NCBI RefSeq assembly: GCF_900129725.1
Contig: NZ_FQWQ01000002.1
Location: 1,302,001 to 1,366,000 of the forward strand
Length of the DNA: 64,000 bases
Direction of reading: 5' to 3'
Source: Chryseolinea serpens
GTDB taxonomy: Bacteria; Bacteroidota; Bacteroidia; Cytophagales; Cyclobacteriaceae
Both the position numbers and the translations under genes were made by a program. How positions within the stretch are numbered: position 1 is the stretch's first letter; every line of letters begins with the position of its first letter. The notes under the pieces are model-generated. The model made no database searches. It was given only the letters and a program-made list of their open reading frames with translations, and was not told the origin of the DNA. Of this stretch, positions 34,174 to 53,151 are shown piece after piece.

Positions 34174-34266
34174 TCAACAACAACATCCCATAGCAGGAGC
34201 AGGTCGTGGTGCTGCGGAAAGATTTGCCGCGGCGATATAAGCTATACGCGTGATGATTTCCACCAT
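34174..34266 (-). CDS. Cysteine leader peptide of sulfatase operon 1
   Basis: Short ORF of 30 codons plus TGA on the operon strand, opening MVEIITRIAYIAAANL and ending AMGCCC-stop: three TGT codons directly before TGA. It lies between the operon promoter (34364-34394) and the first sulfatase. Same design as the leader at 52879, which ends in five Cys codons. Leader peptides of this kind sense charging of the matching tRNA: low cysteine stalls the ribosome. The start is uncertain because the frame is open further upstream and an internal ATG would give only MGCCC. Confidence 0.65.
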   Translation of the reverse strand: MVEIITRIAYIAAANLSAAPRPAPAMGCCC

Positions 34267-34326: not shown

Positions 34327-34367
34327 TCAATCTGGTGGCATTGATCTCTACTAATCCTATAGACAAA
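34327..34367 (-). promoter_or_regulatory. Shared operator-like element of sulfatase operon 1
   Basis: Read on the minus strand: TTTGTCTATAGGATTAGTAG then AGATCAATG and CCACCAGATTGA. The core TCTATAG...GTAGA is an imperfect palindrome (TCTAY-N6-RTAGA pattern). The same blocks occur at 53077-53151 before operon 2. It begins at the -7 element, so a bound protein would cover the transcription start. A dimeric repressor of sulfur genes (for example Rrf2-type) is a reasonable guess; the protein is not in the window. Confidence 0.65.
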
Positions 34368-34423: not shown

Positions 34424-34792
34424 CTAGGCTGGGATGGCGGGCTTCGTCTTTTGGGGTACTGCAATCGTTTCTGTCGAGGCATATTCGAAGCCCCAGTCTT
34501 TCAACGCGGTCAGCACCGGGATCAGGGCCTTGCCTTTGGGGGTGAGGAAGTATTCTACGTGTGGCGGAATTTCGGCATAGACCACGCGCTCGAGAATACC
34601 ATCCCGCTCCAGCTCGCGAAGCTGGGTCGTCAGCATTTGGCGGCTGATGTGTTTCAGGAGCATGCCCAGCTTACCGAAGCGGTTGATGTCGTTGTTGATG
34701 AGGTGGATGATGAAGATTTTCCATTTTCCCCCAATCACCGCCATGGTCGATACGACCGGGCAGTGTTCAACATTGTCTAAACTCATTTTCAT
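34424..34792 (-). CDS. HxlR-family transcriptional regulator
   Basis: 122-residue winged-helix protein: CPVVSTMAVIGGKWKIFIIH, RFGKLGMLLKHISRQMLTTQLRELERDG and TPKGKALIPVL are the three family blocks. The N-terminal Cys in HCPV is the redox or electrophile sensor residue of many HxlR members. It is divergent from the NmrA-type gene with a 123-bp gap and very likely controls it; GTAAG (34815) and CTTAC (34852) in the gap could be half sites. The pair separates the two sulfatase operons and appears unrelated to them. Confidence 0.9.
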   Translation of the reverse strand: MKMSLDNVEHCPVVSTMAVIGGKWKIFIIHLINNDINRFGKLGMLLKHISRQMLTTQLRELERDGILERVVYAEIPPHVEYFLTPKGKALIPVLTALKDWGFEYASTETIAVPQKTKPAIPA

Positions 34793-37284: not shown

Positions 37285-37306
37285 TTCTTTCGGTGGTTTA
37301 TCAAAG

Positions 37307-38950
37307 CTACAAAGTAAAACGGTCTTCCTGGCCATCAAATTCATTCACAAAAAATCCATTGCTGGGCCAAAGGGGATGCACGAGTTTCTTTTCCCAATCG
37401 GCCAGGGCGCTCTCGAGTTCCTTTACCTTTGCGGGATTCGCCCCGGCCACATTGTTACGTTCGGATTTGTCGGTGGCCAGGTTATATAGCGCCGTGATGT
37501 TGTCGTAACGGTTGATCACGAGTTTCCAATCGCCTTTGCGCACGGCCTTGTTAGCTCCGGCCCGCCAGAACAACGTTTCGTGCGGAACGACTGAATCGGT
37601 TTGCGTGAGGTAAGGAACAAGATTCACGCCGTCGTACTCGCGGCCGGGCGGAAGTTCAGCATGTGCTGCGGCGGCGGACGTAGTGAATATATCCAGCGAC
37701 GAAACCGGCTTGTCGTACACCTTGCCCGCGGGCAAGTGACCCTTCCACCGCACGATGAAAGGAACGTTGATGCCGCCTTCGTAGAGCGACATCTTTCCGC
37801 CTTTCAAGGGTGCATTGTCCGTGGCGCCGGTATAGGTTGCTCCACCATTATCACTGATGAAATATATCAATGTATTTTCTTCCAGCCCCGAGGCTTTCAC
37901 TTTCTTCAGGATCGCACCGATCGCATTGTCCAGGTCTTCGATCATGGCATAATACACGGCTTTCCGACGATCGATCCCTTGCGCTTCCAGTTTGGCTACA
38001 TCATTTTTTGGTGCCTGAAACGGTGTGTGCGGGGCGTTGAAGGGAACGTAGAGGAAAAACGGTTTGTCTTTTTTTTGATCGATGAAGTTTATGGCTTCAC
38101 CAGCGATCTTGTAGGTCAGGTATTCCTTCTCGTCCAGGATCTCATTGTTGCGCCGGATCAATGCATCTCCCTCCCGTCCGAATTCCCACACATGCGAGTC
38201 CATAATGCCGCGGTTGCGCACGTTCACAAAATCGTGATCCGTCGTATCGGCATACCAGGAAAATGCTTCATAAAATCCATAATGATAATCGAAGCCCCGG
38301 TTCAGCGGCTGGAAACTTTCGGCCGCGCCCAGGTGCCACTTTCCAATGATGCCCGTGGCATAGCCATTGTGTTTCAACAAATCGGCCAGCGTGATCTCTT
38401 GCAATGGCAACCCTTGTTTCGCGATGCTTTCGGCTGTCGGTGTCTTTGTCAGATCCGCAAACTCGAGTTGCTGCCGGTCAATGAATGTGTTGGCCAGTGA
38501 GCGCTCCAGGTAGTTGTGTATGTACCGGTTCACAGGCTGCGTCTCATGACCAAAGCGCTGCTGGTAGCGCCCCGTTAAGAGTCCAGCGCGCGACGGACTG
38601 CAAATGGAAGCGGTCACATAACCCTCGGTGAACTTCACTCCCGTTGCCGCCAGGCTGTCGAGGTAAGGTGTCTTCACGGGAGTAGGTCCGTAGAGCGGTA
38701 TGTCCGTTTTCCCCAGGTCGTCGGCCACCAAAATGATGATGTTGGGTGGACGTTCGGCCGTATCGCGAACTACCGGTGCGGATAAAAATTGTTTTTTTTG
38801 TTCGATGCCTTTTTCGTCAAAAACAATATCCCAGTCATGCGACGCATACGGTCTGAGCACGATGGAAAACACGACCGCCAAGGGAACGGCGATGGCAAGA
38901 AAAATGCGGAGTATTTTTTTCCAGCGCGGTGGCGATTGGGTAGCGGTCAT
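37307..38950 (-). CDS. Sulfatase, Cys-type, with N-terminal membrane anchor
   Basis: 547 residues. Unlike its neighbours it starts with a basic segment and an uncleaved-looking helix (ILRIFLAIAVPLAVVFSIVL), so it may be inner-membrane anchored and face the periplasm. A 50-residue linker precedes the catalytic domain: ILVADDLGKTDIPLYG, CSPSRAGLLTGRYQQRFGHE, YFISDNGGATYTGATD. The C-x-P-S-R motif is a valid formylglycine site. It lies in the middle of operon 2 with a 22-bp gap to the next gene. Confidence 0.92.
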   Translation of the reverse strand: MTATQSPPRWKKILRIFLAIAVPLAVVFSIVLRPYASHDWDIVFDEKGIEQKKQFLSAPVVRDTAERPPNIIILVADDLGKTDIPLYGPTPVKTPYLDSLAATGVKFTEGYVTASICSPSRAGLLTGRYQQRFGHETQPVNRYIHNYLERSLANTFIDRQQLEFADLTKTPTAESIAKQGLPLQEITLADLLKHNGYATGIIGKWHLGAAESFQPLNRGFDYHYGFYEAFSWYADTTDHDFVNVRNRGIMDSHVWEFGREGDALIRRNNEILDEKEYLTYKIAGEAINFIDQKKDKPFFLYVPFNAPHTPFQAPKNDVAKLEAQGIDRRKAVYYAMIEDLDNAIGAILKKVKASGLEENTLIYFISDNGGATYTGATDNAPLKGGKMSLYEGGINVPFIVRWKGHLPAGKVYDKPVSSLDIFTTSAAAAHAELPPGREYDGVNLVPYLTQTDSVVPHETLFWRAGANKAVRKGDWKLVINRYDNITALYNLATDKSERNNVAGANPAKVKELESALADWEKKLVHPLWPSNGFFVNEFDGQEDRFTL

Positions 38951-39027
38951 AAGAAAGTATGCAAATAGGTTTTGGGTTACGGATCGCCCGCGGCGCTCCG
39001 CTGTTTCTTCTTAAACGTAATCGGGGT

Positions 39028-40668
39028 TCATGGTGTTTGCAAGGATGCCCACTCCACCACGCCCGCCCGGGTTGCCCAGGCTTGGTACAAGGCAACCAGT
39101 TCGCGAAGCTTATCAGGATTCGATGCCGCCAGGTTTTTCAGCTCGGTGCGGTCGTCTTTCAGGTTGTAGAGCTCCCATTTATTTTCAGGATAGAACGACA
39201 CGATCTTCCAGTCGCCTTTGCGCACGGCGCGGTTGCCCTGGTGTTCCCAGTAAATGGCGTCGTGGCCGGCGTACGGTTTTCCTTCGAAGGCATCCTTTAA
39301 TGACAGGCCCTCTTGCGGTATCAGCCTGGCGCCTTTGTATTCTACCGGGTACTTCACGCCCGCCAAGGCAAGCAGTGTCGGTTGAATATCGATGACATGG
39401 GCTGGCGTATGTTGCAGGGTATTCGGTTGGATCTTGCCCGGCGCATAAACAATGAACGGCGTGCTGATCCCACCTTCATGCTCCCAATGTTTGAAGGCGC
39501 GGAAGGGCGTATTGCTCACGTTCGCCCAATTGTATTCATACGAAACATACGACTCCGGATTGTCGGCCGTTAGCGGCTTCACATAGTCAGCCACCTCTTT
39601 TGTCTGTTTTTTTCCGGGAAACGCATACTCATGACTGGCGCCATTGTCGGAGAGGAAGATCACATAGGTGTTGTCTTCCACGCCCAGGTCTTTTAGTTTT
39701 TGCAGAATGCGTCCCACGTTGTAGTCGATCCGGTCAACCATGGCGGCATACACCGCCATCTTCAGATCCCAAGCCTCCTTTTCGGATTGACGGAGTTGAT
39801 CCCATCCGGGAATGAGCGAGTCGCGTGGCGACAATTTCCATTCCGGCCGCAGCATGCCGGAGGCCAATAATTTTTGATAGCGAGCACTGCGCACGACATC
39901 CCAACCCTGCAGGTATTTGCCCCGGTACTTGGCGATATCTTCCTTTCGGGCCTGAACCGGAAAATGGGGCGCGTTGTAGGCCGTGAACAAAAAGAAAGGT
40001 TTGCCTTCCGTGCGCGTTTCTTCCAGGAAGCCAAGTGCATGATCGGTAAATTCGTCGGTCAGATAAAATCCTTCCGGCTTTTTTTCAGTCGTAAAGTTTT
40101 CCAACTTCTGTACGTTCTTCACAAAGAAGTCCATATCCCCCAATTGAAAGGGATGGGGATAAAATTGATGACTCGTGCCGCCGATCAATGCAAAGTATTT
40201 ATCATAGCCACGTGCGCCGGGCCATTGCTCCGGCGTGTTGCCTACGTGCCACTTACCCGACATGAGCGTGGTGTAACCGGCCGTCTTCAATCCTTCCGCA
40301 ATGGTGATCACATTTCTATTCAGGTAGCCCTGGTAGGTAGGCTTGCCCAGGTTGCCGTTCATGAAACCCACCCCCGCCTGATGCGGGTACACACCTGTCT
40401 GCAACGCCGCACGTGTCGGGCAGCAACGAGAGGTGTTATAGAATTGGGTGAACCGCAATCCTCCGGCGGCGAGTCGGTCCAGGTTGGGCGTAGGAATTTC
40501 CGAACCGTACGCACCAATGTCGGAGAAGCCCATGTCATCCACGAGGATCAAAACAAAGTTGGGCTTGGCTGGTCCTTTACCCTTGGTCTTTGGCGGTGAC
40601 TGTGCCATGACCGGCGCGAGAAGGACAGCGCATAAAACGGCAACGGCCGTAGCAAAACGTATTCTCAT
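39028..40668 (-). CDS. Sulfatase, Cys-type (CCPTR motif)
   Basis: 546 residues with signal peptide (about 1-22). ILVDDMGFSDIGAYG, then CCPTRAALQTGVYPHQAGVG; the second Cys of the pair is the residue in the C-x-P-x-R register that starts CPTRA only if offset, so the modified residue is the first Cys of CCPTR. VIFLSDNGASHEYAF and IFYPENKWELYNL in the second half. Closely parallels the sulfatase at 29086 in operon 1 in length and in the GVGFMNGNLG-type insertion, suggesting a duplicated pair. Confidence 0.92.
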   Translation of the reverse strand: MRIRFATAVAVLCAVLLAPVMAQSPPKTKGKGPAKPNFVLILVDDMGFSDIGAYGSEIPTPNLDRLAAGGLRFTQFYNTSRCCPTRAALQTGVYPHQAGVGFMNGNLGKPTYQGYLNRNVITIAEGLKTAGYTTLMSGKWHVGNTPEQWPGARGYDKYFALIGGTSHQFYPHPFQLGDMDFFVKNVQKLENFTTEKKPEGFYLTDEFTDHALGFLEETRTEGKPFFLFTAYNAPHFPVQARKEDIAKYRGKYLQGWDVVRSARYQKLLASGMLRPEWKLSPRDSLIPGWDQLRQSEKEAWDLKMAVYAAMVDRIDYNVGRILQKLKDLGVEDNTYVIFLSDNGASHEYAFPGKKQTKEVADYVKPLTADNPESYVSYEYNWANVSNTPFRAFKHWEHEGGISTPFIVYAPGKIQPNTLQHTPAHVIDIQPTLLALAGVKYPVEYKGARLIPQEGLSLKDAFEGKPYAGHDAIYWEHQGNRAVRKGDWKIVSFYPENKWELYNLKDDRTELKNLAASNPDKLRELVALYQAWATRAGVVEWASLQTP

Positions 40669-40695
40669 GAGTCGTTTCTCTTTTTTAACAAAGCA

Positions 40696-41175
40696 TCATT
40701 CGGCATAGCTGGAGCGCATCTTCACGCCCCAGCGTCCGTTTTCTTTCGTGAGGATGTACAGCGACTCGTAAACACCTAGCTTGGAACCGTCCGCTTTATA
40801 ACGACTGAACCGTGTGTCCACATGCACCTTGGTGTCGGATGCCTGAACGATGTTCCGGTGATCCCATGCACTGTGATCCCAGCCGCCTTTTTGCAAGGGC
40901 ACAAATACGCTGGCTGAATCGCGAAGTCCCGCGTTCTCCAACACATTCATCTTGCCACTGGCCAGCCGGTGGTGGGGAAATTGGTACGTGGCTTCCCACG
41001 CTTTCAAGTTTTTCGCGTTGAAAGTGTTCATGTAATCGTCCAGCACCTTGTACACCTCGGCCTTCACCTTCGCGTCGATCTCGTGCGATCCGCGTTCGTT
41101 TCCTTCCGTCAGCTTAAAGGCTGTGAGTGCAACGCAGCCGAACAATACAGCCGCAAATAACATATTCCTCCTCAT
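40696..41175 (-). CDS. Secreted NTF2-like protein
   Basis: 159 residues with a signal peptide (about 1-22, ending near TAFKL). The fold is NTF2/SnoaL-like: VYKVLDDYMNTFNAKNLKAWEATYQFPHHRL, then VFVPLQKGGWDHSAW and YILTKENGRWGVKMRSSYA, the usual final strands. Such proteins are often isomerase-like or ligand-binding. Three bases after the sulfatase at 41178, so it is translated as part of operon 2. Role unknown. Confidence 0.7.
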   Translation of the reverse strand: MRRNMLFAAVLFGCVALTAFKLTEGNERGSHEIDAKVKAEVYKVLDDYMNTFNAKNLKAWEATYQFPHHRLASGKMNVLENAGLRDSASVFVPLQKGGWDHSAWDHRNIVQASDTKVHVDTRFSRYKADGSKLGVYESLYILTKENGRWGVKMRSSYAE

Positions 41176-41177
41176 TC

Positions 41178-43478
41178 TTATTTCCCTCCGGTTACAGTAG
41201 CCGTTTCAGGTTGTCTTAATTCGACGGTGACTTTATTCAAGGTGCCACTGAAAGCAAACGGAACTTTGTAAGTATCCGACACGGGCGTGAGATCATCAAA
41301 GCCCACATTCAAGCCTTCATGTCCGAAGATGCTATTGGAGGTTTTATCAATACGCGCCTCCCCTACTTTTGTGCCGTTCACATACAATGTGCCCGTGCCA
41401 CCGGAGTTCCTCGGACCGCCGTCGTACTTGAAATCAAATTTCAACAAGGCTTTACCGGGCGTGATCGCCTTGGCCGACGAGGTGACGTTGAATTTCGTCC
41501 ATCCCAAGTTATAGGTAAAGTTCAGCTTCTGATCCTGCACAAAGAAGCTCGTGCCGTTGTCGCGACCACCGGTGGAGAACAACACACCGTCCGCGCCCTT
41601 CGCAGGGATTTCCACATCCGCCGTAAGGCTAAACGATTTATTTCTCAGGTCAGGAGCCGCCAGTTCCACAATGGTGGACGATCCGGGATAGAACACGATG
41701 ACATTCCGTCCATCGAAGATCGTAGGACCAACAATGGGGGTGGCCAGATCTTTCAAAGGATATACATTGTATTTGTAGGCTTCCTTGTCAAAGAGTTCTT
41801 GCAGTTCTTTCAACTTCTCCGGGAACTTTGCCGCCAGGTCGGTCCGTTCGTTGAAGTCCTCATTGAGGTTATACAATTCCCATTTGTCCTGGTTGAAGTC
41901 CTCGCCGTCTTTGTGCAGGGCGCCGGCCTTCCAGCCGTCTTTATAAATAGAGCGCGATCCCTTCACTTCATAGTGCTGGACGGCGTGCTGCGAAGGAGCC
42001 GCCGCGTTGTTGATGCTATACGCCAGGCTGGTGCCTTCGATCGGTTCTTGTTTATAGCCGTTGATCGACGCGGGCACTTGCGCATGGATCAACTCGAGCG
42101 TGGTCGGCAACACATCGATGACGTGACCATATTGATGACGAACGCCACCCTTTTCTTTAATGCCTTTCGGATAGAAAACGATGAGCGGGTTGCGCGTACC
42201 TCCCTCGGTGTTGGCATCTTGTTTCCAATACCGGAAAGGCGTGTTGGCCGCCATCGCCCAACCCAGTGGATAATTCACTTTGGAGAACTCCGTACCGATC
42301 AGGTCAATGTTCTGAATATTTTTTTGCAACACTTGCTCTTGCGTCAGTGATGGGTCGGTGTTGTTCACCACGCCCACAAACGTTCCTTCCTTGCTGGCGC
42401 CATTGTCGCCCACGGAAACAAAGATGAGTGTGTTGTCGAGCTGACCGGTCTTCTTCAGGTATTTAATGATCCTTCCGATCTCATAGTCCGTTTGCGTGAG
42501 GAACCCTGCGTACACTTCCATGAAGCGTGCATATAATTTCTTCTCGTCCGCGCCAAGCGTGTTCCAGTCTTTGATGCCGGGATTACGCGGTGGAAGTACA
42601 GTGTTCTTCGGCACAACGCCTAACTTGATCTGGTTTGCCAAAACCACCTCGCGGTACTTGTCCCAACCCGCATCAAATTTTCCTTTGTAACGATCAGACC
42701 ATTCCTTGGCGACCTGGTGGGGCGCGTGACCTGCGCCCGGTGCTACATATAAGAAGAACGGCTTATCCGGTGCCGACGATTCTTGTTCCGTAAGATATTG
42801 AATGGCCTTATCGGCTAAGAGCGTGTTAAGATGCTTGCCTTTGGTGTCTTCATATTGACGACGGGTATCCTCCCAAAGCTGCGGGTGAAATTGATCCTGG
42901 CTTCCGCGATAGGGAAAGCCATAAAAATGTTCGAAGCCGCGGCCGGTAGGCCAGCGGTTGAAAGGTCCGGCGGCGGTGAGATCGGCGAGTGGCGTGATGT
43001 GCCATTTACCAAGGGCATAGGTATTGTACCCATTCTCCTTCAGGAGTTCAGCGACAGTAGCTTTCTCAAACGGCATGCGTGCATCGTAACCCGGTGTCCC
43101 TACGGCGTTCTCCGGGAAGAGACCCATGTGCACGGAGTGCGAGTTGCGTCCCGTGAGCAGGGCTGCGCGTGTAGGCGCGCAAATGGCCGTGGTGTGAAAG
43201 TTTGTATAGCGCAGGCCTTGGTTGGCCAATGAATCGAGGGTCGGGGTTTGGACGAGTCCGCCGAATGTGCTGATGGCGCCGTAGCCGATGTCGTCCAGCA
43301 GGATCCATACAATGTTGGGTGCTCCTTCGGGGGCTTTTTTCTTTTCGGGCCACCACTGTTGCGTCTCTGCGAGGGTCTTTCCGATCTTTCCCTGGTAGGG
43401 TTGCTGCGGGTCCGATTGCGCGATCAGCAGCGTGGCGCTGGTGGTGACCATCAGCGCGGTGGCAAGTATATTTTTCAT
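41178..43478 (-). CDS. Large arylsulfatase, Cys-type, with C-terminal beta domain
   Basis: 766 residues, signal peptide (about 1-20). ILLDDIGYGAISTFGG, CAPTRAALLTGRNSHSVHMG (Cys about residue 103), FVSVGDNGASKEG. Long form typical of AtsA-like arylsulfatases, in which a concanavalin-like C-terminal domain (about 570-755) follows: FDGRNVIVFYPGSSTIVEL, ADGVLFSTGGRDNGTSFFV, GTLYVNGTKVGEARI. Related to the next sulfatase upstream (43614), which lacks the C-terminal domain. Confidence 0.93.
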   Translation of the reverse strand: MKNILATALMVTTSATLLIAQSDPQQPYQGKIGKTLAETQQWWPEKKKAPEGAPNIVWILLDDIGYGAISTFGGLVQTPTLDSLANQGLRYTNFHTTAICAPTRAALLTGRNSHSVHMGLFPENAVGTPGYDARMPFEKATVAELLKENGYNTYALGKWHITPLADLTAAGPFNRWPTGRGFEHFYGFPYRGSQDQFHPQLWEDTRRQYEDTKGKHLNTLLADKAIQYLTEQESSAPDKPFFLYVAPGAGHAPHQVAKEWSDRYKGKFDAGWDKYREVVLANQIKLGVVPKNTVLPPRNPGIKDWNTLGADEKKLYARFMEVYAGFLTQTDYEIGRIIKYLKKTGQLDNTLIFVSVGDNGASKEGTFVGVVNNTDPSLTQEQVLQKNIQNIDLIGTEFSKVNYPLGWAMAANTPFRYWKQDANTEGGTRNPLIVFYPKGIKEKGGVRHQYGHVIDVLPTTLELIHAQVPASINGYKQEPIEGTSLAYSINNAAAPSQHAVQHYEVKGSRSIYKDGWKAGALHKDGEDFNQDKWELYNLNEDFNERTDLAAKFPEKLKELQELFDKEAYKYNVYPLKDLATPIVGPTIFDGRNVIVFYPGSSTIVELAAPDLRNKSFSLTADVEIPAKGADGVLFSTGGRDNGTSFFVQDQKLNFTYNLGWTKFNVTSSAKAITPGKALLKFDFKYDGGPRNSGGTGTLYVNGTKVGEARIDKTSNSIFGHEGLNVGFDDLTPVSDTYKVPFAFSGTLNKVTVELRQPETATVTGGK

Positions 43479-43569
43479 GACTATGTTCTTGTTAGAAAAA
43501 ATTAAGATTGTATTTGATTCAGGTCCGAATGGGTCTCACTCACGCGAGGCCATCGGCATGAAATCCACC

Positions 43570-43602
43570 ATGGGCGAAGGAATGGCAATTACCTCCGCCC
43601 AT
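43570..43602 (-). promoter_or_regulatory. Intercistronic hairpin between two sulfatase genes
   Basis: ATGGGCG and CGCCCAT, 7-bp arms with a 19-base loop, in the 135-bp gap between sulfatases. Could stabilise or process the operon mRNA; no T-run follows, so not a standard terminator. Confidence 0.35.
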
Positions 43603-43613
43603 CGGGCACATTG

Positions 43614-45518
43614 TTACTTCGACGCGGTGGTCTTTACCGGCGCTTTTGGCGGCGGCTGAAGTTTGTATCGCTCCGCGGCATGTTCGATATCGATGAGCGG
43701 GTAGATATTATACTTCGCCGCTTCCGCATCAAACAGGTCTTTCAGTTCTTTCAATTTTTCAGGATATTTTTTTGCGAGATCTTTCAACTCATTAAAGTCC
43801 TCGTTCAGGTTGTAGAGTTCCCAAACTTCTTTTTCAGGATTGTTTTCAATGGCCGGCTTGGCTTCGCCTTTGTAGGTGAACAACTCCAATGAAGTAGGAT
43901 GGTGTGCTGCTGCAGCCTTCCAGCCATCTTTGTAAATGGCCCGGTTGCCAAAAATGCAATAGTACTGTTGCGTATGGCGCGTGGCCGCTGTCTTGTCGTT
44001 GAGCGAGAAGGCGAGGCTGGTGCCGTGCAACGGATCCTGCTGGATGCCTTGTATGGCTTCCGGTTGTTTCACGCCCGTCAGCTCCAGCGTTGTCGGGAAC
44101 AGATCGATCAGGTGGGAGTATTGTTCTCGGATACCGCCTTTTTCTTTCACTACTTTCGGATAGTAGACAATGAGCGGGTTGTGCGTGCCTCCTTCGGCGT
44201 TGGCATCGCTCTTCCACAAACGGAAAGGCGTGTTCGTGGCCTGCGCCCAGCCCAGGGGATAGTTGGCTACGCTGGCCACTTCTTTGGTTCCGATCTTATC
44301 GTATTCGCCCAGGATAAACTTCTTGTATTCGTCGCGCGTGATCGCGTCAGCACCAAAGCGAATGGACTTGGTGGTCACACCGTACTCAAGTCCTTCCTTA
44401 CTACCACCATTGTCGCCGATCATCACAAACACCGCCGTGTTTTCGAGTTGGCCGGAGGTTTTCAAATAATTGATGAAGCGTCCGATCTCGTGGTCGGTTT
44501 CTTCGAGGAAGCCGGCATACACTTCCATGAAACGCGCATACAAATGTTTCTCTTCCGCAGGCAGGTCTTTCCATGCCTTCAGATACGGATCGCGCGGTGG
44601 CAACTGTGCATTGGCGGGGATCACACCGAGTTTCTTTTGGTTGGCGATCACTTTCTCGCGATAGACATCCCATCCTTCATCGAACTTGCCTTTGTACTTG
44701 TCGGACCAGACTTTGTCTACCTGGTGCGGGGCATGACCGGCGCCGGTAGCATAGTAGATGAAGAAAGGTTTTTCCGGCGCTAGTTCTTTTTGGCGTTTAA
44801 CGTAGCTGATCGCCTTGTCGGCCAACAGCTCATTCAGGTGGCGGCCGTCGGATTTGATGTGTTGGTTGTCTTCCACCAGGTCTGGCTTGTACTGGTCAGT
44901 GGCTCCTCCCAGGAAACCATAGTTGTGATCGAAGCCCTTACCGGAAGGCCAGCGCAGGAACGGACCCAGGTCGGTCGATTCATCATCGGGTGTAAGGTGC
45001 CACTTGCCCAGTTGATAGGTGCTGTAACCATTTTCGTGAAGCACTTCGGCGATGGTGCCTTTCTGTGGAAGGATGTGGCCGTTGTAGCCGGGGTAATCGG
45101 CGGAGAGATAAAAATGGGGGAACAACCCCATGCCTACCGAATGGTGGTTGCGGCCCGTGAGCAAGGCCGAGCGCGTGGGCGAGCAGATGCCGGCGGTATG
45201 GAAATTGGTGTAGCGCAGGCCTTGGTTGGCCAGTGAATCGAGATGAGGGGTCTGGATCAATCCCCCGAACGCGCTGGTCGCACCATAGCCCACATCATCC
45301 AAAATGATCCACACGATGTTAGGCGAATTGGCGGCCGCCTTCTTCACGTATTCGACTTTATACGGCTGCGAGTCTTTTGCCGATTTGCTGATCTTTCCTT
45401 TCCAGGCAGCATCCGGATTTTGTTGTCCTAAGGCAGGCGACAAAAAGAATGGCGCCGCTACCAAAGCCAGGGATAAAAACTTCAGGTTTCTATACCCGGA
45501 ACGAAATGGGGTTTTCAT
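43614..45518 (-). CDS. Arylsulfatase, Cys-type, long form without C-terminal domain
   Basis: 634 residues, signal peptide ending at about residue 31 (ALGQQ). IILDDVGYGATSAFGG, CSPTRSALLTGRNHHSVGMG (Cys about residue 111), FVMIGDNGGSKEG. Same subfamily as the 766-residue neighbour; here the chain stops after the catalytic domain with a Pro/Lys-rich tail (PPPKAPVKTTASK). 25 bp separate it from the sterol-desaturase-family gene upstream. Confidence 0.93.
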   Translation of the reverse strand: MKTPFRSGYRNLKFLSLALVAAPFFLSPALGQQNPDAAWKGKISKSAKDSQPYKVEYVKKAAANSPNIVWIILDDVGYGATSAFGGLIQTPHLDSLANQGLRYTNFHTAGICSPTRSALLTGRNHHSVGMGLFPHFYLSADYPGYNGHILPQKGTIAEVLHENGYSTYQLGKWHLTPDDESTDLGPFLRWPSGKGFDHNYGFLGGATDQYKPDLVEDNQHIKSDGRHLNELLADKAISYVKRQKELAPEKPFFIYYATGAGHAPHQVDKVWSDKYKGKFDEGWDVYREKVIANQKKLGVIPANAQLPPRDPYLKAWKDLPAEEKHLYARFMEVYAGFLEETDHEIGRFINYLKTSGQLENTAVFVMIGDNGGSKEGLEYGVTTKSIRFGADAITRDEYKKFILGEYDKIGTKEVASVANYPLGWAQATNTPFRLWKSDANAEGGTHNPLIVYYPKVVKEKGGIREQYSHLIDLFPTTLELTGVKQPEAIQGIQQDPLHGTSLAFSLNDKTAATRHTQQYYCIFGNRAIYKDGWKAAAAHHPTSLELFTYKGEAKPAIENNPEKEVWELYNLNEDFNELKDLAKKYPEKLKELKDLFDAEAAKYNIYPLIDIEHAAERYKLQPPPKAPVKTTASK

Positions 45519-45543
45519 TGGGGTTTGGGGTGATAAGGTTGTA

Positions 45544-46482
45544 TTAAGTCAATTTCAATTCGGAAGACACTGCAATTTTAGCGGGGGCTTCCTCCGCCGT
45601 CGCGGGAACAGCGGCATCGTCTTCTTTTACCATCGGGCCGTTGGCCGCCAGTTCGCTGCCTTCTTTTTTGGATTTCAGGATCGGCCAGAGAAACTGGGCA
45701 TACCATTCCTCCTGCTGATAATGTTTGATGCCATACGCTTTGGGATACTGACGCGTGATGAGTCCCGTGCCAAAGATCACATCCCACAAGAAAAACATGT
45801 TGCCAAAATTTCCTTTGTAATGCCCGATGCCATCGTCGTTGCTGTCGGCGTGATGCGCGTGATGCGTCGCCGGTGTCGAGATGGTGCGCTCCAATACCCA
45901 AGCCACAGGGTGAAGCCATTTCTTCTCATAAAAAGGTTTATCCCAGGGAATGCTGGAGTGGGCGAGCGTAGTGATGATGGACTTGATCCCTTTCACAAAT
46001 AACGCGGGATATCCCAGTCCCAGGTAAACCAATGCCGTGGTGAGATAGGTTTGCGAAAAGAACATCGTGTAGATCACATTCTGACGGCTGGCCATGGCCA
46101 TCCCCATGTAGGGCGCCGAATGATGCGTGCGATGAAACCGCCACAGGAAGGGTACTTCGTGGTGCAGGCGGTGATACCAGTATTGTGTCAGGTCATCGGC
46201 CACGCAAAGAATGGCAAAGCCCCACCAGAAAGGCACCCAGCTGAAAGTATCCTTCAACCCCGGCAACGCATAGGGCAGGAACTTCAAAGCGAAATACGTT
46301 ACCAACGGCCGCACGACAATACGCGGTATGGTGTAGCACACGAGGTCCAGGATCTTTTCATTGGTGTTCCAATGCTTTTTGTACAGACCGAACGAGAATT
46401 CGACTATACCCAGGATGAGCATCAACACGGGCAGTCCCCACGTGCTGAGGTTTTGAAAAATGGCTTCGATGAATTTGATCAT
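45544..46482 (-). CDS. Sterol desaturase / fatty acid hydroxylase family membrane protein
   Basis: 312 residues with about five helices. The di-iron histidine boxes are present: HRLHHE, HRTHHS (HxxHH type) and HHAHHAD, with a further His in the THHAHHADSNDD stretch. Family members oxygenate alkyl chains of sterols, fatty acids or ether lipids in the membrane. It is embedded between sulfatase and micro-protein genes in operon 2. A possible role is opening the alkyl moiety of a sulfated lipid or modifying an own sulfonolipid, but this is inference from location only. The C-terminal 50 residues are Ala/Glu-rich and probably cytosolic. Confidence 0.85.
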   Translation of the reverse strand: MIKFIEAIFQNLSTWGLPVLMLILGIVEFSFGLYKKHWNTNEKILDLVCYTIPRIVVRPLVTYFALKFLPYALPGLKDTFSWVPFWWGFAILCVADDLTQYWYHRLHHEVPFLWRFHRTHHSAPYMGMAMASRQNVIYTMFFSQTYLTTALVYLGLGYPALFVKGIKSIITTLAHSSIPWDKPFYEKKWLHPVAWVLERTISTPATHHAHHADSNDDGIGHYKGNFGNMFFLWDVIFGTGLITRQYPKAYGIKHYQQEEWYAQFLWPILKSKKEGSELAANGPMVKEDDAAVPATAEEAPAKIAVSSELKLT

Positions 46483-46505
46483 AGGGTTGATTTAGGTTGA
46501 TAGCG

Positions 46506-46667
46506 TTACTTTGAACCTTGAGCAGCGGGAACCGGCTTCTTCTCCCACGGCCTCTGGCCGGTGAAGTAGAACGTGAGCAACATGAGCAATACAGGCAATG
46601 CGTAGATGAAAACGCTCAACAGGACATTTCTGACGATCCGGTTGGCAATGTGTGATTCCATTTTCAT
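46506..46667 (-). CDS. 53-residue single-span micro-protein A in operon 2
   Basis: Starts MKMESHIANRIVRNVLLSVF, continues IYALPVLLMLLTFYFTG and ends with a basic/proline tail (RPWEKKPVPAAQGSK). One membrane helix at about residues 17-36. Located 23 bp before the hydroxylase gene and 12 bp after micro-protein B, all on one strand. The positive charges before the helix and the tail suggest a bitopic inner-membrane protein. Family not recognised. Confidence 0.6.
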   Translation of the reverse strand: MKMESHIANRIVRNVLLSVFIYALPVLLMLLTFYFTGQRPWEKKPVPAAQGSK

Positions 46668-46679
46668 AGGCGATGCGTT

Positions 46680-46835
46680 TTATTTTGTCGTTTGAACCGA
46701 ATTTCCCTCGCGACTCTTGTTCAGCACGCTCTTCGTCAACCAAAGTCCACCAAACAGGATCAGGAAAGGAACAAGCGTTACAACGATCCCCACAAGGATC
46801 TTCCGGGCTAAAAGGGTTACATCGGAAGCAGTCAT
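46680..46835 (-). CDS. 51-residue single-span micro-protein B in operon 2
   Basis: Starts MTASDVTLLARKILVGIVVT and continues LVPFLILFGGLWLTKSVLNK, ending in a polar tail. One membrane helix at about 14-34. An ATG at 46913 would lengthen it by 26 residues that do not look like protein. With micro-protein A it forms a pair of small bitopic proteins between SusD and the hydroxylase; they may be accessory subunits of that enzyme or of an envelope complex. Confidence 0.55.
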   Translation of the reverse strand: MTASDVTLLARKILVGIVVTLVPFLILFGGLWLTKSVLNKSREGNSVQTTK

Positions 46836-46958
46836 ACTTTTTTTGTTTTGATGTGGCAAGATTAAGCTCCTGCTCACTCCGCCACCAACGGAGGAGCAGG
46901 ATGTCGTTTTCACGACGTCTTAATCTTTATCTTCAATTTCTTTCTCAATAGTCATCGA

Positions 46959-48575
46959 TCAATATCCAGGATTCTGATGGCCTTCCAGCTTGGGATTCAA
47001 TTCGATCTCTTGTTGCGGCAGCGGATGCAGGCGATGTTTGTCCTGGGCATTCGGCTTGCCGGCGGCCTGCAGCGTCTTCACAAAGATGGAGTTGCCCCCT
47101 GCGTCTTTCTGGCGAACCAGGTCAAACCACCGTTGGTATTCGAACACCAATTCCAAACGACGATCCAGGTACAGTGAGTCGCGGAATTGATCGCGCGACA
47201 GGCCCGCGGTGAGGTCGTCCAACCCAGCCCGGTTGCGCACTTTATTAAGCGACGCATAGGCCTTCGCTGTGGGGCCGTTTAATTCGTTCTCGGCTTCCGC
47301 GTGGATCAACAACAATTCGGCATAGCGGATGATGGCCACGTTCGCAGCCGACTCACTGGTGAAGGCCGTTGTAGCGGGATCCCATGTTTTATTGAAGTAA
47401 GGAATGGAGTCGACCTTGTGACCGGAGATGGCCGGGTCGTTCAATGCACCATACTTCTTGCCATTGGTTGGACTTTTGAAGTTGGTCACGAAGGTTACGT
47501 CCCTGCGTTTGTCTTTGGAGGTGTACAATTTGAACACACTGAAAAACTTGTCTTTACCACCGGGCTTGGTAGCATCGTCTACGGTATAGAACCAGGTTTG
47601 ATCGGCATAGGAACCGGCGAGACCGGGAACCTGCGTGCGTATAGACCTGGGATTTTGGTTGTTGCCTTGTGTGAGGAAGCTGGAGCTGGAACCCGACTTG
47701 AATTGTGCAGAGAAGATATGCTCAGAATTGTTCTTGAACGCCGGCAGAAAAACTTTCGAGTAGTCGGTCTGCAAGGCGTAACCGAACGTGCCTGTGCCAC
47801 CTTCTGCGGGCGAGAGTGCTTTCTCTGCCGTGGTGACGGCGTCCTGGTAGTGTGCCGTGAGGTTTAGGGGCAGCGAAGCTTTGGTCAGATAAACTTTAGC
47901 CAGCAAGGCAATGGCGGCACCTTTTGTAGCACGTCCCACGTCGGGTGCGGAGTAAGAATTGGGTAGCGCGTCGGCGGCTTCCTTCAGATCCTGTTCGATC
48001 TGGTCATATACTTGTGCCGAGGGGGTGCGTTCGATCGCATAGTCCGTGGCTGTTATCCCGCTCTGTACATGCGTAATGAGCGGCACATCACCATATAGGC
48101 GAACCAGGTTGAAGTACCACAGCGCCCTTAGAAATTTGGCTTCACCGAGGAGGCGGCTTTTCAATGCCGTACCCACGGTGGTCATGGCAGGGATGTTGTC
48201 GAGCGCCAGGTTGGCCTTTTTGATGGCCGCATAATGCTGCTGCCATAACTCATAGACACGGAGGTTCGTGGAGGTGTGCAGCAGGTTAGCCATGGAACGC
48301 ACGTCGGGGTTCGTGGCGCCGGGGCCAGGGAATTCATCGTCGCACTCGAAGTTGAGGCCGGTGTTGAACAAGGTGTTATACGGCGTTTGCACCGAGTTAC
48401 CGCCCTGGTTCAGGAGGTAGTATACTGCCGTGACCGCATTTACAGCATCGGCTTCCGTTTTGTAAAAATTATCGGTGGTCACAAATCCTTTCGGATCTTC
48501 TTCCAGGAATTTGCCGCAGGAAGCGAGCAGCGCAACCAATCCACTGAGGGCAAAAATATATTTAAGAGATTTCAT
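46959..48575 (-). CDS. SusD/RagB-family outer-membrane lipoprotein (sulfatase locus)
   Basis: 538 residues with lipobox LLASC (Cys about residue 20), so it is a surface-exposed lipoprotein. SusD-type start EEDPKGFVTTDNFYKTEADAVNAVTAVYYLL, TPR-like helices, and the closing HRLHPLPQQEIELNPKLEGHQNPGY typical of RagB/SusD. It forms the lid over the SusC pore encoded immediately upstream and captures the ligand. No glycan-degrading enzyme accompanies it; with the sulfatases next door I infer a sulfated small molecule or sulfated polymer fragment as cargo. Confidence 0.93.
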   Translation of the reverse strand: MKSLKYIFALSGLVALLASCGKFLEEDPKGFVTTDNFYKTEADAVNAVTAVYYLLNQGGNSVQTPYNTLFNTGLNFECDDEFPGPGATNPDVRSMANLLHTSTNLRVYELWQQHYAAIKKANLALDNIPAMTTVGTALKSRLLGEAKFLRALWYFNLVRLYGDVPLITHVQSGITATDYAIERTPSAQVYDQIEQDLKEAADALPNSYSAPDVGRATKGAAIALLAKVYLTKASLPLNLTAHYQDAVTTAEKALSPAEGGTGTFGYALQTDYSKVFLPAFKNNSEHIFSAQFKSGSSSSFLTQGNNQNPRSIRTQVPGLAGSYADQTWFYTVDDATKPGGKDKFFSVFKLYTSKDKRRDVTFVTNFKSPTNGKKYGALNDPAISGHKVDSIPYFNKTWDPATTAFTSESAANVAIIRYAELLLIHAEAENELNGPTAKAYASLNKVRNRAGLDDLTAGLSRDQFRDSLYLDRRLELVFEYQRWFDLVRQKDAGGNSIFVKTLQAAGKPNAQDKHRLHPLPQQEIELNPKLEGHQNPGY

Positions 48576-48605
48576 ATCGTTATCTGTAGAAAGTCTGTAA
48601 TGATT

Positions 48606-51600
48606 TTAGAAAGTCAGGCTGATGCCGCCCAGTATCGTTTTAGAGTTGGGGTACACGCCGTTGTCGATGCCGCGGTTTACGAGCGACTGGCCCGAAAAGC
48701 TCGCCTCCGGATCGTAACCGGTATAGTTCGTCCAGGTGGCAATGTTCTGCGCCGAGCCGTAGATCCGCAACCGCTGGATATGGATGCGCGATGTCCAGGT
48801 TGTCGGCAACGTATAGCCGATCGTCAAATTCTTCAACCGCAAATAGGAAGCGTCTTCAATAAAGCGATCGGAGATCGTCACGGCAGGATCCTGGTAGGCT
48901 TCCTTCACGTCGGTGTTGGTATTGGAGGGTGTATACCGGTTCAGCATTTCGGTCGATCCATTGTAATAGCCCGTGCCCAATTCCAGCGTCGCGCGGTTGT
49001 TGTTGTACAACTTGCCGCCCACGTTCGATTGAAAAAATACGGTGAGGTCGAAATCGCCAAAGGAAGTCTTATAGCTCGCCGTGTTTGTAAAACCGAAGTT
49101 GGTGCCGGGTTGATTTTTGATGAGCACGCGGTCGTACGCTTGCGTGATCACACCATCGGGTACACCGTTAGGACCGCTGATGTCCTTGTACTTCTGACCA
49201 CCGGCGCTTTTATTGGCCTGGGGCGTGAGCGCGGAAGCGCCGGCTTCTTCAGCTTGAATGATGCCATCCGTCTGGTATACATAGAAGGACCCTACCGGAG
49301 CGCCTACCTGCAAGACCGAGGGTTGGCTGATGGTAGGAATGATCCGATCCACACCCGGACCAAGGCTTACAATTTTGTTGACGTTTTTGGAGAAAACGAA
49401 GATGCTGTTCCAATGAAAATTATTGGTCACTACATTTTGCGTATTCAGGGCAACTTCAATCCCTTTGTTTGACACCTCGCCGATGTTCTGGTAAACCGTC
49501 GATTGCTGGCTTGGGTTGGTGTTGGGATCGTAGTAGGACAAACCCGATGTGCCCGGAACAGCAGCATTCAGCAACAGGTCGGTAGTCTTCTTGTTGTAGG
49601 CATCGACGATCAGGTTCACGCGGTTATTGAACAAACCCAAATCAAAACCAACGTTGGTCTGGAAGGTTTTTTCCCAACCCAGGGAAGGGTTGTTTACCGA
49701 TAGCGGTGCATAGCCTTGCACGGTCGTATTGGAGAAATTGTAGCGGTTGGGTGCGATCTGTCCCAGGGAAGAATACGGCGGAATGCCTTGGTTACCCGTA
49801 GTACCCACGCTGACGCGAAGTTTCAGGAAGCTGATCTGGCGGATGTCTTTCAGGAACTCCTCTTCATTCACATTCCATCCCAAAGCTGCCGAAGGGAAGT
49901 ATCCCCATTTGTTTCCAGAACCGAAACGCGAAGAGCCGTCGGCACGCAAGGTAGCCGTGAGCAAATATTTTTCATTGTACACATAATTCACACGTCCCAG
50001 GAAGGAGGCCAGCTGCCAATTCACCGACGAGGAGCTTGGTGTCCGGGCACCGGTTCCGTTTTGAAGGGCGTTGTACGTGAGATCATCGAAAGCAAAGACG
50101 GCGGCAGAGGCAATTTCCCCTTGCGTCTTCGAGGCTTGTGCCGTAAACCCGGCCACGACGTTCAGGTTGTGTTTGTCGTTGAACACTTTGCTATAGGTGA
50201 GCGTGTTCTCATTCAACCAACTGGTGGTGAATTGCGACCCGATGGTAGCGATACCCCCCGTACCCACCCCCCCCGAGGGATTGCCTTCATAGGTGCTGTT
50301 GGGCAAGTACCGGTTCTGACGGTTGTACACAATATCCGTTCCCAACAACACTTTCAGCGCCAGGCCATCGATGAGTTTGTATTCCCCCGCCACGTTGGCC
50401 AGCAAACGCGACGTACGCGACTCGTTGACCTGGTTCAGCAGCGAGTTGATCGGATTCTGCAGCGGCGAATCCGTGGAAGTATTCTTCACGAAGTTGCCCA
50501 GCGTATCATAAACCGGGATGGCCGGTGAGGTCAGGAGCAGGTTGGGCACGATGGCGTTGGGGGCAATCTTCCCCAGCGTTTGCGCCGCGGTGACATAGGA
50601 CGTGATCCTGAATTTTTCGTTAACCTCATGATCGATGCTAAACCGCATAGCGTAGCGTTTGAATCCCGTGTTTTTCAACACGCCATCCTGGTTGAAGTAG
50701 TTGCCGGAAATGGCCAGTGCCGTGCGCTCGGAACCGGTGTAGATGGAAAGGCTGTGACTTTGCACGGCGGCTTGCGTGAAGGCTGCCTTCTGCCAGTCGG
50801 TTCCTTCACCAATCGTGTCGTATTTGAATGCTCCCGCGGCCGGAAGCGTAGGGGCTTTTCCGTTGGGTGTATTGACATACGCCTCCTTGCGCAACTCCCA
50901 CCATTGACGGGCATTCAACACCGGCACCGTGCGGATCACATCCTGCACACCGTAATACCCATCATACACGATGGACGAGCGATCGGTCTTGCTTCCTTTT
51001 TTGGTCGTGACCATGATCACACCGTTGGCGCCGCGCGAACCATAGATGGCCGTGGCCGAAGCATCCTTCAACACTTCGATGTCGGCAATATCATTGGGGG
51101 TTAAAAAAGACAGCGGGTTCAGTTTGGGTCCGTCCACCACACCGGCGTCGGTGACACTGTAATCGTTGTTAATGGGGAAACCATCGATGACATACAAAGG
51201 ATCGGATGCCGCGGTGATGGAGTTGTTGCCACGCACCTGCACGCTAACACCCCCGCCAGGCTGACCGGTGGTTTGGGTTACGGTGACCCCGGCAGTGGCG
51301 CCCTGCAGTAAACGCTCAGGCGAACTCACCGGCTGTGCTTTCAATTCCACGGGAACAGAAGCGACCGAGCCGGTAATGTCCTTGCGTCTCAACTCACCGT
51401 AGCCGACCACCACCACTTCGTCCAGCACGTTGTCGATCTTCAGCGTCACGTCCAATGGTTCTTCGGGCAATTCATAGATGTCGACATCTTGCGCTTTGTA
51501 GCCGACAAGATTCACGGTGAGCGTAAAGGGAAATTGTTTGCCGGCCTTCAACGAAAACTCGCCGTTGGCATCGGCCAGAACCGAATTGGTGGTGCCTTTG

Positions 51601-51728
51601 ATATAGACCGACGAACCTGGCAGCGGACCACCATCTTCATCTTTCACACTTCCTTTAATGACTTCCTGGGCCAGGGCCGACCCAAGCGATAGCAACACGA
51701 ACGATGTCGCCAGTAAAATTCTCTTCAT
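48606..51728 (-). CDS. SusC/RagA-family TonB-linked outer-membrane transporter (sulfatase locus)
   Basis: 1040 residues. Signal peptide, CarbopepD-regulatory domain (about 22-100, VIKGSVKDEDGGPLPGSSVYI), plug domain (about 115-225) with SVQVRGNNSITAASDPLYVIDGFPI, ATAIYGSRGANGVIMVTTKKG, then a 22-strand barrel ending GGISLTF. Complete SusC architecture. It should import the ligand captured by the SusD protein downstream, using TonB. Upstream 35 bp is the binding-protein gene, so operon 2 starts with a capture-and-import set. Confidence 0.95.
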   Translation of the reverse strand: MKRILLATSFVLLSLGSALAQEVIKGSVKDEDGGPLPGSSVYIKGTTNSVLADANGEFSLKAGKQFPFTLTVNLVGYKAQDVDIYELPEEPLDVTLKIDNVLDEVVVVGYGELRRKDITGSVASVPVELKAQPVSSPERLLQGATAGVTVTQTTGQPGGGVSVQVRGNNSITAASDPLYVIDGFPINNDYSVTDAGVVDGPKLNPLSFLTPNDIADIEVLKDASATAIYGSRGANGVIMVTTKKGSKTDRSSIVYDGYYGVQDVIRTVPVLNARQWWELRKEAYVNTPNGKAPTLPAAGAFKYDTIGEGTDWQKAAFTQAAVQSHSLSIYTGSERTALAISGNYFNQDGVLKNTGFKRYAMRFSIDHEVNEKFRITSYVTAAQTLGKIAPNAIVPNLLLTSPAIPVYDTLGNFVKNTSTDSPLQNPINSLLNQVNESRTSRLLANVAGEYKLIDGLALKVLLGTDIVYNRQNRYLPNSTYEGNPSGGVGTGGIATIGSQFTTSWLNENTLTYSKVFNDKHNLNVVAGFTAQASKTQGEIASAAVFAFDDLTYNALQNGTGARTPSSSSVNWQLASFLGRVNYVYNEKYLLTATLRADGSSRFGSGNKWGYFPSAALGWNVNEEEFLKDIRQISFLKLRVSVGTTGNQGIPPYSSLGQIAPNRYNFSNTTVQGYAPLSVNNPSLGWEKTFQTNVGFDLGLFNNRVNLIVDAYNKKTTDLLLNAAVPGTSGLSYYDPNTNPSQQSTVYQNIGEVSNKGIEVALNTQNVVTNNFHWNSIFVFSKNVNKIVSLGPGVDRIIPTISQPSVLQVGAPVGSFYVYQTDGIIQAEEAGASALTPQANKSAGGQKYKDISGPNGVPDGVITQAYDRVLIKNQPGTNFGFTNTASYKTSFGDFDLTVFFQSNVGGKLYNNNRATLELGTGYYNGSTEMLNRYTPSNTNTDVKEAYQDPAVTISDRFIEDASYLRLKNLTIGYTLPTTWTSRIHIQRLRIYGSAQNIATWTNYTGYDPEASFSGQSLVNRGIDNGVYPNSKTILGGISLTF

Positions 51729-52696: not shown

Positions 52697-52735
52697 TGGT
52701 GGAGTGTTTTTAATGATTTGTGAAATTGGCGGCGA

Positions 52736-52868
52736 CGGAATGCACCCACGCGTAATGAAATACCACCAAGTCTCTCGTTAAGACGGGTGCATCCGAAGCC
52801 AGGTATGTATGATGATTAAGTGTCGCCCATCCGAAAACGGATGGCACGCGCGGTATAGGCGTTATACC
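52736..52868 (-). promoter_or_regulatory. Leader RNA with alternative hairpins, operon 2
   Basis: On the transcript after the leader stop: a hairpin GGTATA/TATACC (52852-52868) beginning 10 bases after TGA; A = GTGCCATCCG (52838-52847); B = CGGATGG (52827-52833); C = CGGATGCACCC (52785-52795); D = GGGTGCATTCCG (52736-52747). A pairs with B (TTTT loop), C with D; alternatively A pairs with C (nine pairs, one bulge). This gives two exclusive folds, as in attenuators, although neither hairpin is followed by a long T-run. Confidence 0.5.
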
Positions 52869-52878
52869 TCAGAGAAAA

Positions 52879-52956
52879 TCAACAGCAACAACAACAGCTG
52901 CCGCTGGTTCCGGTATGGAGTGATGGAAAGCATGGAAACGCCCTACGTGTTTTCAT
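52879..52956 (-). CDS. Cysteine leader peptide of sulfatase operon 2
   Basis: ORF of 25 codons plus TGA on the operon strand, opening MKTRRAFPCFPS and ending GTSGSCCCCC-stop; codons TGT TGT TGT TGC TGT TGA. It lies 183 bases before the binding-protein gene and downstream of the operon promoter. Five consecutive cysteine codons, the rarest amino acid, at the very end of a leader ORF before sulfur genes are the hallmark of amino-acid-sensing leader peptides. A hairpin starts 10 bases after the stop, within reach of a ribosome stalled on the Cys codons. There is an extra Cys at position 9. Confidence 0.75.
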   Translation of the reverse strand: MKTRRAFPCFPSLHTGTSGSCCCCC

Positions 52957-53076
52957 CGCAGTGATCTTATAGTCCCGTAAAAAAAAATGTTACCTCAGGA
53001 TGTCATGGCATGTTCTTGGTGGGGACATTGCCGGAAGATCGTCGAGCTCCTGTTCTCTCCCTTCGCTTCTATAAAA

Positions 53077-53151
53077 TCAATCTGGTGGGAATTGATTACG
53101 GACAAATCAATGTTGGTGGGCGTTGAATTGTCTACTTATTCTATAGACAAA
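53077..53151 (-). promoter_or_regulatory. Shared operator-like element of sulfatase operon 2, with internal duplication
   Basis: Minus strand: TTTGTCTATAGAATAAGTAG, AGACAATTCAACGCCCACC, then a second partial copy ATCAATTCCCACCAGATTGA. Matches the element at 34327-34367. The CCACC/CAATTGA part is present twice (53077-53098 and 53107-53127), so an ancestral tandem duplication is likely. The TCTATAG...GTAGA core overlaps the expected transcription start. Confidence 0.65.

Follow-up and report, generated by a model that had tools for sequence, protein, structure and literature searches.

The attenuators of the his, trp and leu operons carry a leader open reading frame (ORF) with a run of codons for the relevant amino acid. 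The trp and leu systems are named among the classical amino-acid attenuators in excerpts of PMC1262725. Short ORFs with cysteine runs ahead of sulfur genes appear in excerpted accounts of mycobacterial polycysteine ORFs (Canestrari et al. 2020, via PMC9031893 and PMC13236596) and of actinobacterial cys leaders (Seliverstov et al. 2005, PMC1262725), and the leader described below shares this feature with both. As excerpted, the actinobacterial leaders also place the run near the stop and have no obvious intrinsic terminator (PMC1262725), and the same is true here. For SAM-I riboswitches that hide a ribosome site inside the aptamer, excerpts of PMC2258182 locate that site within the 3' strand of P1.

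The window, the 64,000-nucleotide stretch of Bacteroidota DNA analysed here, presents in order a candidate operator, a SAM-I aptamer, a leader start just 3' of P1, a tail of Cys codons (joined by Met codons in relatives), hairpins and sulfur genes, as assigned from sequence and conservation (Table 1). The explanation we favour for this arrangement is a leader RNA that reads two signals of sulfur supply, and we hold this reading to be probable.

Table 1. Features of the two leader regions and the downstream operon, in window coordinates
Feature	Position	Strand	Basis
Candidate operator motif TTTGTCTATAGAATAAGTAGA preceding the aptamer (inverted repeat GTCTA-N9-TAGAC)	53131..53151	-	pattern match
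Short 5' hairpin TCAAT-tcccaccag-ATTGA, precedes the aptamer	53077..53095	-	sequence by eye
Divergent SAM-I (S-box) riboswitch aptamer	52964..53077	-	RF00162, 30.1 bits
P1 3' strand of the aptamer (TATAAGAT)	52964..52971	-	Rfam alignment
Cys-run leader ORF, MKTRRAFPCFPSLHTGTSGSCCCCC and stop	52879..52956	-	sequence and conservation in orthologs
Five Cys codons TGT TGT TGT TGC TGT	52882..52896	-	sequence
Hairpin GGTATA-acgcc-TATACC after the leader stop	52852..52868	-	sequence, fold
Hairpin CCATCCG-tttt-CGGATGG	52827..52844	-	sequence, fold
Conserved long hairpin, apical UUGGUGG, 3' GCCGCC	52721..52803	-	alignment of 9 loci
First operon gene, 310 aa	51764..52696	-	no known family
Rest of operon: SusC-like, SusD-like, FA_hydroxylase, two sulfatases, weak NTF2-like match, three sulfatases	35893..51728	-	Pfam, NCBIfam
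Same candidate operator, precedes the second leader	34347..34367	-	pattern match
Second Cys-run leader, MVEIITRIAYIAAANLSAAPRPAPAMGCCC and stop	34174..34266	-	sequence

The cysteine-run leader and its conservation

A sequence-only reading of this DNA had claimed a 25-codon leader with five terminal Cys codons, which we recovered at 52956..52879: on the minus strand it reads ATG AAA ACA CGT ... GGC AGC TGT TGT TGT TGC TGT TGA, and the peptide ends CCCCC. The hairpin claimed 10 bases past the leader stop was also located, starting at 52868; the operon, counted as 11 genes in that reading, came to 10 ORFs of 100 aa or longer, all in the same direction, once nested frames were excluded; they run from 51764-52696 to 35893-37344 and include five sulfatases. 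The first of these genes encodes a 310-aa protein with no match in Pfam or NCBIfam, and its paralog at 31639-32637 resembles binding proteins weakly (PF12849, E = 1.5e-4), the 22.1 bits lying below the cut-off of 27. The NTF2-like match within the operon likewise falls under its cut-off.

When the 310-aa protein was used to search 196 family genomes, 28 matches were obtained in 18 genomes, eight of them with at least 59% identity (the genome of the window itself, hereafter the own genome, and G042, G041, G078, G162, G178, G130 and G135). In all eight loci, 158-244 nt separate the gene from the stop of a Cys-run ORF upstream, and the run, whose loss in orthologous loci the earlier reading had named as an outcome that would refute it, is in frame as Cys in 8/8. 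The leader bodies differ among these loci, except between the own genome and G042, where the Cys run is identical and about one base in eleven differs (551-base query). In G130 the leader tail is HFCCCF, and from the most distant ATG the ORF counts 71 codons; a shorter ORF from an internal start fits as well. Among the 20 more distant matches, a Cys-run ORF was found within 1.5 kb in three, one being another gene's leader (G015, L126). The window leader thus has two of the properties by which leader-peptide attenuators are recognised, namely a short ORF with consecutive Cys codons before a sulfur-metabolism gene and conservation in orthologous loci (8/8 at 59% identity or more, 3/20 beyond).

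Several properties of the leaders in related loci point to translation. TGT and TGC are mixed in 102 of 120 Cys runs (111 leaders, duplicates included), so it is the amino acid rather than the codon that is kept. Across 107 unique leaders, the last 45 nt contain 120 ATG codons in the leader frame compared with 16 and 12 in the other two frames, and a stop falls close behind the run in 83/107 leaders in the leader frame compared with 16 and 9 in the others; this frame test ruled out a Leu or Val reading frame of the run. Methionine makes up 7.5% of tails and 0.7% of bodies, such that both sulfur amino acids are favoured, with the Cys enrichment of tails arising by selection and the Met enrichment not. 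We have little doubt that the leader is translated. A TGY repeat acting untranslated, as RNA structure or as a microsatellite, could account for the trinucleotide-like look of the run and for its capacity to self-fold in the window, but it sits poorly with the mixed codons, with the in-frame start, stop and Met codons and with retention of the run in orthologs whose flanks are unrelated, and we regard it as extremely improbable.

A further alternative is that the peptide itself functions, as a Cys-rich micropeptide with a role in trans such as metal binding or redox reporting. Runs of 7 or 8 Cys do exist among the leaders, and some targets do not resemble sulfur genes, as such a peptide might lead one to expect; however, the body is not conserved even among orthologous loci, none of 10 leaders matched a peptide family in NCBIfam, and the counted leaders lie in cis before genes, many of them of sulfur metabolism, making this explanation highly improbable. 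The earlier proposal that the leader senses cysteine stands insofar as the run is conserved as Cys, and we judge it likely that the run is the sensor; as an account it was incomplete, because a SAM-I riboswitch forms the other half of the element.

SAM-I aptamers, the candidate operator and the distribution of the module

The window aptamer reached E = 1.2e-4 in a permissive Rfam search of 721 bases, and its 30.1 bits fall below the gathering score of 44.4. Rfam at gathering thresholds returned zero matches across the entire window, such that the aptamer surfaced under the permissive search alone, and an RF00162 search of the own genome down to 15 bits did not return the window copy, which was apparently lost in that first look. 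The core of this copy is altered, and the leader ATG follows the P1 3' strand, and with it the aptamer end, by 7 nt. Seven further RF00162 aptamers above the gathering score are present in the own genome. At the orthologous loci, scores ranged from 78.0 bits (G162), 74.8 (G078), 71.6 (G178) and 69.3 (G135) to 30.1 in the own genome and 26.6 in G042, and no match was found at G041 or G130 up to E 1; the aptamer is therefore weak or not found in 4/8 loci, all of which retain the Cys run. Judging from sequence, the intact aptamers of relatives very likely bind SAM, whereas SAM binding by the window copy is rather doubtful. With the window aptamer apparently decaying, the dominant signal at this locus may by now be cysteine.

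Decay of the aptamer raises the alternative that the leader is a relic and that control now rests with the TTTGTCTAT operator alone. The drop from 30.1 bits here to 26.6 in G042 and none in G041 would fit a relic, as would the operator pattern, which occurs before Cys leaders only (5/5). Specifically, the pattern TTTGTCTATNGNNTNNNTAGA has five matches in the 8.36 Mb genome and none in the reversed control, and every one of the five sites is closely followed by a Cys-run ORF (at the window leader, the second leader at 34266..34174, L006, L008 and L010). Because the pattern was written from its own five sites, the informative part is the absence of other sites; it has no match at the other own-genome leaders L004, L005 and L335. 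Against a relic, the Cys run is unchanged between the own genome and G042 despite the divergence of the surrounding DNA, and we consider this alternative very unlikely. An HxlR-type regulator (PF01638) is encoded at 34424..34792 (-), adjoining the TTTGTCTAT motif that belongs to the first sulfatase operon, and is a candidate binding protein of that motif. By eye, a 5' hairpin resembling the one before the window aptamer is also found in L008, in L010 and ahead of the 34 kb leader.

The Cys-run leader is not unique within the window. The second one, kept in the close relative G042 as MVEIITRISIVAAINLSAAPRHAPAPGCCC and stop, heads the window's other sulfatase operon and precedes genes for a sulfatase, a binding-protein-like product, a sulfatase-modifying enzyme and another sulfatase. 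No Rfam family, SAM aptamers included, was matched there up to E 0.1 (L317, L318).

Features of the leader start suggest a link to P1. A TATAA-like P1 strand begins 15-17 nt before the leader ATG in 51/107 unique leaders, and A is frequent upstream of the ATG at -3 (64%), -6 (62%), -12 (75%) and -13 (61%), the same positions that are positive for initiation in Flavobacterium johnsoniae according to excerpts of PMC6847099. The aptamer's position directly 5' of the leader ATG, conserved in relatives, would argue against a leaderless transcript. These observations bear on whether the transcript instead carries two independent controls, with the SAM aptamer acting alone (e.g. on Rho access or mRNA decay), the Cys leader acting alone, and no gating between them. 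The modules come apart over evolution, which favours independence: the second leader lacks a recognised aptamer, the run stays in G041 and G130 where no aptamer was found, and aptamers without a leader precede metH-like genes. The recurrent P1 distance of the leader start and the A-rich signal in or beside the P1 strand are nonetheless hard to explain if the two are unlinked, and we regard independent controls as unlikely. That SAM acts by gating leader translation has, in our estimate, about an even chance of being correct.

At six of the eight aptamers in the own genome (seven plus the window copy), the leader that follows has 3-5 consecutive Cys; at another it contains HCCHS, and after the metH-like one there is none. 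Gene labels outside the window (homocysteine-synthase-, dioxygenase-, glutamate-dehydrogenase-, metH-like and so on) were taken from the look of the sequence rather than from a family search, and are to be read as presumed. The leader tails, up to the stop, are ...DICMCCCCACCC at a homocysteine-synthase-like gene, ...QTCCCCC at a 157-aa ORF, ...GSCCCC at a dioxygenase-like gene, ...RCCCC and ...NYCCC at two sulfatase-like genes and ...LHCCHS at a glutamate-dehydrogenase-like gene.

Across the family, aptamers were found in 40/41 genomes at 108 places, which together with the window copy make up the census; by P1 type, these are 68 TTATA and 41 TTATC sites. A Cys run of at least 3 follows 38/68 TTATA sites and 0/41 TTATC sites, the latter subtype lying mostly before metH; at a threshold of at least 2, the counts are 49 of 68 and 0 of 41. 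Thirty of the 68 TTATA sites are without a run of 3. In shuffles of the DNA downstream of the 68 sites (dinucleotides preserved, 200 per site, 13,600 total), a run of at least 3 arose in 0.1% and a run of 4 in none. Leaders with three or more consecutive Cys occur in 23 of the 40 aptamer-bearing genomes. While the contrast between P1 types was set post hoc, the contrast between gene clusters is independent of P1: runs of at least 3 precede 0/33 metH-like genes, 17/46 homocysteine-synthase-like genes (plus 9 with CC), 6/7 ferredoxin-like genes (plus 1 with CC), 4/4 OsmC-like genes, 2/2 sulfite-reductase-like genes and 2/2 sulfatase-like loci. Such leaders are not confined to sulfatase genes: homocysteine-synthase-like, ferredoxin-like, OsmC-like and sulfite-reductase-like genes of relatives have them too. 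The search for Cys-run ORFs before sulfur genes of relatives that the earlier reading had suggested found them after SAM-I aptamers across the family genomes. Singleton targets with a Cys-run leader include a transporter-like (L090) and an ATP-grasp-like gene (L107); together with the dioxygenase-like gene (L006) and the 157-aa ORF (L005), they do not resemble sulfur genes.

We rejected CCCC-stop as a genome-wide marker. The pattern had 96 matches in 41 genomes compared with 19 in the reversed control, and 24/29 examined matches overlie a long open frame; the pattern alone is therefore not evidence, whereas position after an aptamer is. Four own-genome CCCC-stop sites lie outside the module (L309-L312), and L310 and L311 contain short ATG-started Cys-run ORFs.

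Beyond the family, a collection of 84,980 species was scanned for an aptamer core, an ATG and three Cys codons, and 80 of at least 120 matching stretches were listed. An ATG-started ORF with a Cys run of at least 2 was found in 73 of these 80, although this is not a frequency, because the scan pattern was tuned on the family (fitting 19/35 leaders) and demands Cys codons. A crude core test was passed by 62 of the 73, with the core visible by eye in the remaining 11, and was failed by the 7 stretches without such an ORF. Records among the listed stretches include Mucilaginibacter, Pedobacter cryoconitis, Pontibacter and Rufibacter as well as Saprospiraceae, Crocinitomicaceae and Flavobacteriales bins. 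In a phylum sample, 69/80 genomes had the aptamer, and at the 107 sites beyond the own genome a run of at least 3 occurred at two sites of one same-order genome and CC at four more. The aptamer and Cys-leader module is present in several lineages and is not phylum-wide. Many aptamers outside the family in this sample (e.g. L338) have CATC in the P1 5' strand, the opposite strand of which could hold an ATG.

Proposed mechanism and readout

We infer leader translation, stalling, the direction of control and the readout as follows. When SAM is plentiful, the aptamer would hold P1 and mask the A-rich leader start, leaving the leader untranslated and the operon low; when SAM is low, the leader would be translated. 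A shortage of charged tRNA-Cys would then slow the ribosome at the Cys codons, and the stalled ribosome would keep the downstream RNA permissive, such that the operon would be most active when SAM and cysteine are both low.

Intrinsic terminators were ruled out as the general readout, occurring between leader and gene in 5/97 loci (1.6% in shuffles), with two clear cases, L103 and L114; none was found for the window leader. At these two sulfite-reductase-like loci, a single SAM aptamer is followed by two successive Cys-run ORFs and then by a strong intrinsic terminator before the gene. Since no terminator/antiterminator arrangement was found, we do not file the window leader as a classical transcription attenuator. 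Folds of those family leaders whose Cys run reaches 3, the pairing test given below and alignments of four small groups showed good hairpins in some and no shared architecture, so a common attenuator structure was also rejected. We think that the readout quite probably involves Rho-dependent termination or translation of the first gene rather than an intrinsic terminator. Excerpts of the actinobacterial study describe the same gap in the readout and suggest Rho (Seliverstov 2005, PMC1262725), and excerpts on the Mbox of M. tuberculosis describe a uORF controlled together with Rho-dependent termination (PMC12810186).

Pairing between the Cys/stop segment and RNA further downstream was modest (mean z -0.55 across 96 loci, compared with -0.18 for the control arm and +0.29 for the control 3' region). 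In simulated stalling at 75 loci, the openness of the gene start rose from 0.602 to 0.623 (p = 0.0025 versus no ribosome, 0.016 versus a ribosome at the stop), and stall and stop differed by more than 0.1 in 8/75 loci, five up and three down. These simulations lend weak support to the idea that stalling may unmask the gene start. Downstream of the leader, L004, L130, L133, L201 and L206 have a common motif around AGTGAC in a possible nested stem, and in 4/5 of them it is preceded by GCAACA, which could pair with the Cys codons.

The long hairpin before the first gene had no Rfam family match in permissive searches at the window and in relatives. In the 9-locus alignment, 99.3% of cells are paired across 15 pairs, and the lower stem shows covariation, with 3 pairs changed on both sides. 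A loop-to-tail pseudoknot (GGUGG:CCRCC) is possible; its 5 pairs are 100% paired in the nine loci, but 4/5 are invariant, which is suggestive at most. A covariance model gave 19 matches in 13/192 genomes, 16 of them strong, 9 of these 16 being the model's own input sequences, and a Cys-run ORF lies upstream of 13/16 strong matches and of 4/7 outside the input. The hairpin also occurs at G000:C9:547233-547313 and in relatives (L319-L337) before several kinds of gene, and at L320, L325 and L328 it is present without a Cys leader. Going beyond the two-signal reading, we tentatively suggest, at somewhat less than even odds, a modular device in which a SAM-I riboswitch gates a Cys/Met-run leader, computing "SAM low AND charged tRNA-Cys low", to which the conserved hairpin and a dedicated operator would add further inputs in operons of SusCD and sulfatase genes.

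Comparison with described systems

If this reading is correct, the module would amount to a naturally occurring logic gate that combines a metabolite riboswitch with a codon-based sensor for the same nutrient. It would also exemplify control by leader peptides in a phylum without Shine-Dalgarno sequences, as excerpts of PMC6847099 characterise the Bacteroidota, and a way to ask how these bacteria read ribosome stalling, intrinsic terminators being rare in these leaders. The module offers a concrete handle for finding sulfur-scavenging loci (SusCD and sulfatases), and natural losses of each part make the question directly testable.

Searches of the open PMC literature, which leaves subscription papers and preprints outside the scope, brought up no paper recognisable as describing a Cys-run leader coupled to a SAM riboswitch; within that scope, the parts are known, and their combination and the Bacteroidota context appear undescribed. 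The codon run is like that of the classical his, trp and leu attenuators, although no general terminator/antiterminator pair was found here. Excerpts on uORFC-8-2, which precedes cysS in Rhodobacterales (PMC8632094), likewise place Cys codons of a leader ORF within a stem, but that system has two Cys codons, an intrinsic terminator and a tRNA synthetase gene, and the excerpts mention no riboswitch. The mycobacterial polycysteine ORFs are leaderless in the excerpted accounts, which mention no riboswitch, whereas the ORF here has an internal start immediately 3' of a SAM-I aptamer; relative to these and the actinobacterial leaders as excerpted, the present ones belong to another phylum, are enriched in Met as well and precede varied target genes. 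With the SAM-I riboswitch (RF00162), the module shares the aptamer fold, the Rfam score in relatives and the sulfur genes, but the start nearest P1 is that of the Cys-run leader and not of the regulated gene. Coupling between a riboswitch and uORF translation is known from M. tuberculosis, in the Mbox/rv1805A case (PMC12810186), which involves Rho, and in the B12/metE and ppe2 cases (PMC11260477); while the excerpts of these reports mention no run of codons for a regulated amino acid, the uORF here appears to be an additional sensor for the same nutrient.
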